NCBI GenBank assembly: GCA_029979265.1
Contig: JAPOHW010000003.1
Location: 1 to 64,000, forward strand
Reading direction: 5' to 3'
DNA: 64,000 nucleotides
DNA from: Actinomycetota bacterium
GTDB lineage: Bacteria > Actinomycetota > Acidimicrobiia > Acidimicrobiales > Aldehydirespiratoraceae
Positions 11,833-56,392 of this stretch are shown piece after piece; position 1 is the stretch's first letter; every line of letters starts with the position of its first letter. Under the pieces are notes generated by a model. The model did not search any database. It was not told the origin of the DNA and worked only from the letters and a program-made list of their open reading frames with translations. The position numbers and the translations under genes are program-made.

Positions 11833-12141
11833 TCAGATGAGATCGATCGGACAGGGAGCACCGTCGAGCCCATCGACGAACACACCGACGCCGCGGCCGA
11901 AGAGTCCGGCCTTCGTCACATGGATCTCGACGGGGAGTCGGGCAAGATCAGGGTCGATGAGGACGAGCACCTCGTCGATGCCCGCTCGGATGTAGCTCTC
12001 GAGGGTTCTGCCCCTCGTGTGGGTGTCGACCGACACCTCGAACTTCTTGCCTCAACCGTATGGTTCGAGCAGGTCGACGACCGCAGTTCCCCCCTTGCGG
12101 GCGATAGCGGCAGCTGCAGCGGTACTCACGTCGACTCTCAT
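11833..12141 (-). CDS. candidate selenoprotein, hypothetical (102 codons, in-frame UGA at codon 30 as possible Sec)
   Basis: Reading: MRVDVSTAAAAAIARKGGTAVVDLLEPYG-[UGA]-GKKFEVSVDTHTRGRTLESYIRAGIDEVLVLIDPDLARLPVEIHVTKAGLFGRGVGVFVDGLDGAPCPIDLI. UGA at 12054-12052; same frame continues 72 codons with strong GC3 bias; hairpin GGTGTC-GGTC-GACACC starts 15 nt after the UGA. Alternative: 67-aa ORF from GTG at 12036. Confidence 0.45.
12022..12037 (-). promoter_or_regulatory. SECIS-like hairpin downstream of in-frame UGA
   Basis: 6-bp perfect stem GGTGTC/GACACC with apical loop GGTC; the loop starts 21 nt after the UGA and begins with G. Confidence 0.4.
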
Positions 12142-12215: not shown

Positions 12216-12229
12216 CGAACAGGTGTTCG
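12216..12229. promoter_or_regulatory. LexA (SOS) box upstream of imuA-like gene
   Basis: CGAACAGGTGTTCG, perfect 5-bp arms of the actinobacterial/Bacillus-type CGAAC-N4-GTTCG box. Confidence 0.88.
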
Positions 12230-12240
12230 ATACTCGCGGG

Positions 12241-12948
12241 ATGGCACACAGGCATGCGCGAAACCTTGCTGTCGACACGCTCGATGGTCCTCATCAAGCC
12301 GTGCGACGAGCACAACTCGAGCTGGTCGCCGACCGAGTCGCGCCGCTCGCGCTCGCCCGTGAGCAGACCCTTCCGGTTCATGGTGCATTGACCTCGCTGT
12401 TTCCCGGTGGAGCGCTGCGCCGAGGGGTTGTCGTCGGTGTCGGAGGGGTCGGTGCCACCTCGCTCGCACTCGCTGTTGCCGCTGGCCCCTCTGCAGCCGG
12501 ATCATGGACAGCGTTCGTCGGCGGTACCGACATCGGTCTCGCTGCAGCAGGTGAACACGGAGTGGTGCTCGAGCGGTTGCTGGTCGTCGATCCCGAACCC
12601 TCCGCGTGGCCGTCGGCTGTCGCTGCGCTGATCGGTGCAGTCGACATGATCGTCATCTCACCCAGGCATCGGCTGCGCGAGACCGATGCTCGCCGGATCG
12701 GTTCTCGCCTGCGCGAACGGGGTTCGGTACTGGTGAGCATCGGCTCACAGTGGCCGGTTGGTGCCGACGTGCAGCTCGACGTCGTCGAGTCGCGATGGTG
12801 CGGCATCGGTATCGGTCATGGCGTGTTGCAATCACGCAAGGTCACCATCGCCGGAGGTGGCAGGGGAGCGGCGGCGCAACCCCGATCGCTCGATGTCTTG
12901 CTCCCCGGCCCCGGAGGCGCGCCTCATCCCGTGGCCACAGTCGACTGA
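12241..12948 (+). CDS. imuA': ImuA'-like mutasome accessory protein (RecA-fold)
   Basis: RecA-like 'LFPGGALRRGVVVGVGGVGATSLALAVAA'; LexA box directly upstream; overlaps imuB (ATGA). Confidence 0.8.
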   Translation: MAHRHARNLAVDTLDGPHQAVRRAQLELVADRVAPLALAREQTLPVHGALTSLFPGGALRRGVVVGVGGVGATSLALAVAAGPSAAGSWTAFVGGTDIGLAAAGEHGVVLERLLVVDPEPSAWPSAVAALIGAVDMIVISPRHRLRETDARRIGSRLRERGSVLVSIGSQWPVGADVQLDVVESRWCGIGIGHGVLQSRKVTIAGGGRGAAAQPRSLDVLLPGPGGAPHPVATVD

Positions 12949-15817: not shown

Positions 15818-15831
15818 CGAACATATGTTCG
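15818..15831. promoter_or_regulatory. LexA (SOS) box upstream of dnaE2
   Basis: CGAACATATGTTCG, perfect palindrome 13 bp upstream of the dnaE2 ATG. Confidence 0.92.
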
Positions 15832-55251: not shown

Positions 55252-55348
55252 GACAACCAACCGGGGAGCTCGCAACGCCGGGCTGAGAGGTCGACAGCCG
55301 TCGACGACCCGACAGAACCTGATCTGGGTAATGCCAGCGGAGGAAGTC
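55252..55348 (+). promoter_or_regulatory. TPP (THI element) riboswitch
   Basis: Conserved 'GGGCTGAGAGG', 'CCGACAGAACCTGATCTGGGTAATGCCAGCGGAGGAAGTC' directly upstream of thiBPQ. Confidence 0.96.
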
Positions 55349-56392
55349 ATGAAAACGCTGTCGCTTTCGTTGCTGGCTGTCGTGGTGCTCACGGCAGCGT
55401 GTGGTGGTGAAGATCGAGCGGGCGAGTTCGGCAGTGACCCGGGTGGTACGACCGTCACTCTCATGACGCACGACTCGTTTGCGATCTCTGACTCGGTCTG
55501 GGAAGCCTTCACGGCCGAGACAGGCGTGACCGTCGAACTTCTCCAAGTGGGTGATGCGGGGGCGATGGTGAGCGAGGCGATCCTCACCAAGGACGCGCCG
55601 ATCGCCGATGTGATCTTTGGGGTCGACAACACCTTTCTCCAGCGCGGACTCGACGCTGCGCTCTTCCAGCCCTACGAGTCCCCGAACCTCGACCGTGTGT
55701 TCGACGAGCTGAAGCTCGACGACGACAACCGCGTCACGCCGATCAGCTTCGGGGATGTGTGCGTCAACTACTGGATCGATGCACTCCCCGGTGCTGCGGT
55801 GCCAACGACGCTGGAGGACCTCACGAACGAGCGCTATGCAGGTCAACTGGTGGTGCAGTCACCCGAGACGTCCTCGCCGGGGCTTGCGTTCCTGTTGGCC
55901 ACAATCGTCGGTACTGATGACTGGGAGCAGTTCTGGGCCAATCTGGTCGCCAACGACGTCAGCATCGCAGCCGGCTGGGAGGACGCGTATTACGGCGAGT
56001 TCATCGCCGGCGGCGGTGAGCGATCGATCGTCGTCTCGTATGCGTCGAGTCCACCGGCCGAGGTGATTTTCGCCGACCCCCCGATCGACGTTGCCCCCAC
56101 CGGGGTCCTCCTCGACTCCTGCTTCCGTCAGATCGAGTTCGCCGGCGTGCTCGCCGGTGCTGCCAATCCCTCCGGTGCGGCTGCCCTGATCGATTTCATG
56201 CTCACCGACACCTTCCAGGAGGATGTGCCGCTCAACATGTTCGTCTTCCCGGCATCGCAGTCGGCTGCACTGCCGCCGGAATTCGTCGAGCACACGACGG
56301 TTCCGATCGCGCCACACATCATGGATCCCGCCGAGATCGAGGCGAATCGAGATGCCTGGGTCGACCGCTGGGTCGAGATCGTTCTCGGGTGA
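55349..56392 (+). CDS. thiB: thiamine ABC transporter substrate-binding lipoprotein
   Basis: 'MKTLSLSLLAVVVLTAACGGED' lipobox; 'VTLMTHDSFAISDSVWEAFTAETGVTVELLQVGDAGAMVSEAILTKDAPIADVIFGVDNTFL'; TPP riboswitch upstream. Confidence 0.93.
   Translation: MKTLSLSLLAVVVLTAACGGEDRAGEFGSDPGGTTVTLMTHDSFAISDSVWEAFTAETGVTVELLQVGDAGAMVSEAILTKDAPIADVIFGVDNTFLQRGLDAALFQPYESPNLDRVFDELKLDDDNRVTPISFGDVCVNYWIDALPGAAVPTTLEDLTNERYAGQLVVQSPETSSPGLAFLLATIVGTDDWEQFWANLVANDVSIAAGWEDAYYGEFIAGGGERSIVVSYASSPPAEVIFADPPIDVAPTGVLLDSCFRQIEFAGVLAGAANPSGAAALIDFMLTDTFQEDVPLNMFVFPASQSAALPPEFVEHTTVPIAPHIMDPAEIEANRDAWVDRWVEIVLG

Follow-up and report, generated by a model that had tools for sequence, protein, structure and literature searches.

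Comparison with homologs from related genomes identifies, with high confidence, a genuine selenoprotein gene on the minus strand of the window (the whole 64,000-nt stretch of DNA analyzed here). This small gene looks as if a stop codon truncated it, but the UGA at its codon 30 is very probably read as selenocysteine (Sec). The encoded protein represents an apparently undescribed clade of selenoproteins with a predicted IscA fold, most of which are found in Acidimicrobiales. As read from the sequence together with the homologs, the gene extends from an ATG at position 12141 to a TGA stop codon at 11835-11833 (12141-11833, minus strand) and encodes 102 residues including Sec30. The 29 codons starting with the ATG precede the in-frame TGA (12054-12052, minus strand; motif EPYG-U-GKKF), and 72 sense codons separate the latter from the stop codon. 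The first-pass annotation of the window had described one frame running through a single TGA with 72 codons after it, and its coordinates were verified in the sequence. By openness, this frame is not beyond chance: when 1,588 TGA triplets on both strands of the GC-rich window were tested, the frame stayed open for at least 72 codons in 24.7% of the cases. Because such long open stretches after a TGA are common in the window, little weight can be given to the open frame by itself. By conservation, in contrast, the UGA-spanning frame is far beyond chance.

When 298 genomes of the same order were searched by tblastn, 41 yielded a clear homolog (E ≤ 4.5e-5), and a TGA interrupts an otherwise open frame in 41 of these 41. 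The first-pass annotation had named homologs that begin only at the GTG at 12036 as an observation that would speak against a selenoprotein. Instead, an ATG or GTG is located 29 codons before the TGA, with 61-75 codons after it, in all 30 loci that were extracted. Sec falls in a single column of the alignment in 26 of 26 aligned members. Within the genus, the gene with its TGA is present in eight of nine genomes, and the sequence is under purifying selection both before and after the UGA (summed pN/pS of 0.25 upstream and 0.50 downstream). The carriers of the Sec form include Ilumatobacter nonamiensis (strain YM16-303, L044) and many metagenome assemblies of Acidimicrobiales. Searching 397 Actinomycetota genomes with a profile revealed further Sec forms outside the order (L066, L068, L069, and L073). 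The same search recovered four close homologs, also outside the order, that have a Cys codon in place of the UGA, namely TGT in L070 and TGC in L071, L072, and L074. The column that reads TGA in the Sec homologs thus reads TGC or TGT in these Cys homologs, the very alignment that the first-pass annotation had proposed to look for. The tree, which is poorly resolved, requires two changes between Sec and Cys. Weak, stop-free matches within the order (E 0.001-0.009) were considered as Cys homologs and discounted, most of them being located inside long unrelated ORFs. No relatives were found in viral contigs and plasmids.

Downstream of the UGA, the nucleotides +15 to +30 form the hairpin GGUGUC-GGUC-GACACC (12037-12022, minus strand), with a 6-bp stem and a 4-nt loop, the first base of which is at +21 (12031). 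For bacterial SECIS (bSECIS) elements, the constraints are an apical loop of 3-9 nt, an upper stem of 4-16 bp, a G in the first two loop positions, a distance of 16-37 nt from the UGA to the loop, and a minimum free energy of −7.5 kcal/mol or below (PMC13188914). The window hairpin lies within all of these limits: the loop is 4 nt and the stem 6 bp long, G is the first loop base, the UGA-to-loop distance is 20 nt, and the bare hairpin has an energy of −8.1 kcal/mol. Moreover, the hairpin forms in all 43 distinct Sec genes. The first-pass annotation had therefore been right about its sequence, its start at +15, the G at +21, and its fit to the bacterial SECIS model. An energy of −7.5 kcal/mol is reached by the bare hairpin in 39 of the 43 homologs, and the loop base is at +21 or, in some of them, at +24. 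When 48 nt were folded, another pairing was favored in L027, L029, and L039, perhaps because folding one sequence at a time has its limits. The geometry of loop, stem, G, and spacing is the same as in other bSECIS elements, whereas the sequence, which coincides with a conserved peptide motif, is for that reason unusually uniform throughout an order. A scan of the window against Rfam did not match a SECIS family; the only match was a TPP riboswitch (RF00059, 55.3 bits) at 55252-55362 on the plus strand.

The hairpin codons GAG GTG TCG GTC GAC ACC specify the peptide E-V-S-V-D-T. Their third positions are almost invariant, whereas the flanking codons vary freely. GTG is used in 43 of 43 Sec genes (versus 28% elsewhere in these genes), TCG in 41 of 41 (versus 32%), and GTC in 43 of 43 (versus 56%), counts that ignore the kinship among the 43 genes. 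Across the helix, 100% of the cells are paired, as compared with 25-68% when the partners are slid. Compensatory double changes were observed as well, from G-C to C-G in L038 and from U-A to G-C in L020 and L028. In the latter two loci, Ala stands in place of both the Ser and the nearly invariant Asp of VSVDT and the SECIS stem is intact, so that the RNA pairing is preserved despite the change in the peptide. The hairpin is lost in the four close Cys homologs, where the codons at this place specify A-A-I, V-A-I, or I-A-F. Judged by these comparisons, the hairpin is a real SECIS element.

Two alternative explanations would dispense with either the Sec or the SECIS. The UGA could be an ordinary stop codon, or reflect a pseudogene or a sequencing error, in which case a short peptide would end there and a separate small ORF would start at the GTG at 12036. 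Such an ORF does exist (67 aa), and the frequency of long frames after TGA triplets in the window fits this explanation, too. However, dozens of independent genomes have the TGA at this very codon, homology spans it, relatives have Cys codons instead, and selection is purifying on either side. The conserved TGA/Cys column already refutes this explanation on comparative grounds, and we consider it extremely improbable. Hardly more credible is the proposal that the hairpin is a by-product of the E-V-S-V-D-T motif and that chance suppression or a SECIS-free route accounts for the reading of the UGA. All of the hairpin indeed lies in the codons of a conserved peptide motif, and longer RNA folds of several homologs favor other pairings. 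Yet the third positions are frozen only at the hairpin codons, the compensatory changes preserve the stem, one of them (L020 and L028) at the expense of two residues, and the four close Cys homologs, with their different codons, have no hairpin. Decoding of the UGA as Sec through a SECIS thus remains the reading that we adopt in the following.

The first-pass annotation had suggested a search of the full genome for selA, selB, selC, and selD, and all four are present: selA (315.8 bits), selB beside it (302.6 bits with TIGR00475), tRNA-Sec (64 bits versus a gathering score of 47) on the same contig at a distance of 15 kb from selA-selB, and selD (364.6 bits). The SelB winged-helix domain PF09106 was not found in the genome, though SelB is clear by TIGR00475. 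This genome has two other genes that are read through a TGA, namely those for SelD (L042, G000:C14:6213-7139; HGAG-U-GCK) and FdhA (L091, G000:C13:42648-44516; CNRT-U-HAPS), and the hairpins that follow their TGA codons have GGUC in the loop, like the window hairpin. Across the order, SelA was found in 40 of the 41 genomes with the gene versus 139 of the 257 genomes without it (Fisher p = 5e-9, with kinship ignored). The exception among the 41 is G170; in this genome and in a further Sec-form genome, G649, with a completeness of 83% and 80%, respectively, SelA was not seen. Among the genomes with close Cys forms, SelA is absent from G420 and G459 and present in G440 and G619. In addition, eight genomes of the genera g2 and g3 of family f1 (G034, G118, G175, G200, G223, G243, G262, and G281) have SelA without a match to the selenoprotein, so that the gene is patchy even within this family.

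The fold of the protein was predicted with AlphaFold2 using 46 aligned sequences, and the model is of fairly high confidence (pLDDT 84.5, pTM 0.77). Comparison of the model with PDB structures yielded IscA/SufA/HesB-type proteins or DsrR as the top nine matches (probability 0.90-1.00, TM about 0.5), followed by a sharp drop, and the top match in a viral structure library was an Fe-S assembly protein. When 13 A-type carriers, drawn from this genome and from related ones, were compared with the family by hhalign, Sec30 (EPYG-U-GKKF) fell on the first conserved Cys of the carriers (RPGG-C-SGFS), with P = 1.3e-4 and a probability of 54%. The window protein and 26 members had no meaningful match in Pfam, including PF01521 (E ≤ 1), and a PDB sequence search with the family profile gave no matches. 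Because TM is about 0.5, the hhalign probability is 54%, and PF01521 is unmatched, the assignment of the modeled structure to an IscA-like fold is good but not certain. The first-pass annotation had offered a HesB/IscA-like protein as a weak guess, which the fold comparison and the modest profile match now back.

The predicted fold and the position of the first Cys or Sec are common to the window protein and the A-type carriers IscA, SufA, and ErpA. The carriers, however, have PF01521 and a C-terminal CGC or CxC, whereas the window protein family lacks a Pfam match and mostly has one C-terminal Cys. This residue, Cys97 (11853-11851, minus strand), is present in at least 90% of the homologs and is a possible partner of Sec30; L019 and L035, two Sec members that end early, do not have it. 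The C-terminal tail is of low confidence in the AlphaFold2 model (pLDDT 46-57), so that a contact between Sec30 and Cys97 cannot be judged from it. The genome also encodes an ordinary A-type carrier (G000:C9:77219-77521), and therefore the selenoprotein is not a replacement for it. The gene for this carrier is located about 2 kb from selA-selB (79638-82453).

The closest known selenoprotein family, and the only curated one that the window protein matches, is the CC/Se motif family (seleno)protein NF041239, whose first prediction came from Moorella thermoacetica. All 26 tested members match its profile, with a best E value of 1.2e-9, and the window protein aligns over positions 1-81 of 91. The scores, 23.3 bits for the window protein and 35.6, 31.4, and 24.9 bits for related members, are below the curated cut-off of 40. 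A genome-wide search with NF041239 in the genome of the window gave no match at E ≤ 0.001, the protein matching weakly in the direct scan. The family motif is listed as CxxU (PMC13188914), whereas the window protein has P-Y-G-U in place of CxxU or CC, with Pro27 where the upstream Cys would be, and none of the aligned Sec members has a Cys in the three residues before Sec. In more distant, NF041239-like homologs with CC (L075) or CxxC (L076), the last Cys occupies the Sec column of the window protein. Also unlike NF041239, the window protein has a conserved GxxEVSVDTxxKGKNLxxYR segment that carries the SECIS; these comparisons were made with the curated profile and Actinomycetota homologs. TIGR01911, the HesB-like selenoprotein, is by name of the HesB/IscA type with Sec and belongs to the same superfamily as the predicted fold of the window protein. 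However, the window protein is unmatched by this profile at E ≤ 1, and the HesB-like motif is listed as UxGP (PMC13188914), as compared with U-G-K-K in the window protein. We therefore assign the window protein to a remote branch of its own that is related to NF041239 and has a predicted IscA-like fold; it is not a curated member of NF041239, TIGR01911, or PF01521.

Given the score below the NF041239 cut-off, current annotation probably lacks the clade. Such genes usually go unrecognized or are annotated as truncated, and no paper that combines selenoprotein, Acidimicrobi, and SECIS was found in the literature searched. The clade would extend the bacterial selenoproteome in Acidimicrobiales. 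It also provides a natural experiment, in which the Sec forms retain an RNA hairpin within a peptide motif and the Cys forms lose both the hairpin and the exact motif.

On the comparative evidence, it is well supported that SelB and tRNA-Sec decode the UGA at codon 30 as Sec by the standard bacterial route, directed by the SECIS hairpin 15-30 nt downstream, inside the E-V-S-V-D-T codons. The product would be a protein of about 102 residues with the predicted fold of the A-type carriers (IscA/SufA/HesB), in which Sec30 is predicted to take the place of the first cluster-binding cysteine of IscA and Cys97 to be located roughly where IscA has the C-terminal CGC. Sec30 would then be the working residue, as a selenolate that binds metal or Fe-S species or as a group that undergoes redox cycling, and Cys97 may aid it in most members. 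The function does not follow from the assignment to the IscA fold. Tentatively, and with slightly less than even confidence, we favor a role of the IscA-like pocket in metal/Fe-S or selenolate-sulfur handling.

A less probable but serious alternative is that the protein is a true selenoprotein in which Sec30 is a redox group, forming a selenenylsulfide with Cys97 or with a small thiol or thioredoxin, and the IscA fold is a mere scaffold. The majority of uncharacterized selenoproteins probably serve redox functions (PMC13188914), and the prevalence of Cys97, the reduction of the IscA CGC to one Cys, and a DsbA-like ORF that adjoins two related loci (L050 and L052) point in the same direction. 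However, neither a thioredoxin fold nor a CxxU/UxxC motif is present, both the predicted fold and the location of Sec agree with a metal/Fe-S carrier, and two members (L019 and L035) have no C-terminal Cys. A further reading is rather unlikely: in a clade of Actinomycetota, mostly Acidimicrobiales, Sec might replace the first cluster-ligand Cys of an IscA-fold protein such that metal or Fe-S is held via selenium, or Sec might receive and pass on sulfur or selenium. If true, Fe-S or chalcogen trafficking would have a selenium-based variant that differs from the known HesB-like selenoproteins. The role of Sec in an IscA-type pocket becomes testable with this clade, and the close Cys homologs are ready controls.

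The first-pass annotation had also described the gene as divergent from the SOS mutasome. This adjacency was confirmed for the locus and for near relatives; it is not general. The divergent neighbor is an imuA-like ORF (12223-12948, plus strand), and a LexA-type SOS box, CGAACAGGTGTTCG (12216-12229), is located between the two genes, the true start of the imuA-like gene probably being downstream of this box. A LexA box is also present at −71/−72 in L011, L012, L096, L097, and L098, and none was found within 120 nt in L094 and L095. A general SOS link via the LexA box was rejected, in view of two genus members without a nearby box, and the box most likely serves the imuA-like gene. Among the loci compared, L011 and L012, both of the same genus, are the only ones in which the imuA-like gene adjoins the selenoprotein gene; the other loci have different neighbors, and no conserved gene neighborhood that would point to a pathway was found in this set. 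Because the mutasome neighbor is restricted to near relatives, the SOS adjacency says little about function. In two loci, an ORF that is DsbA-like by eye lies just downstream of the selenoprotein gene (L050:8402-8971 and L052:8527-9105), possibly a functional link within that subclade. The box CGAACAGGTGTTCG is a perfect LexA-type palindrome, and the window contains a second one, CGAACATATGTTCG (15818-15831), near dnaE2.
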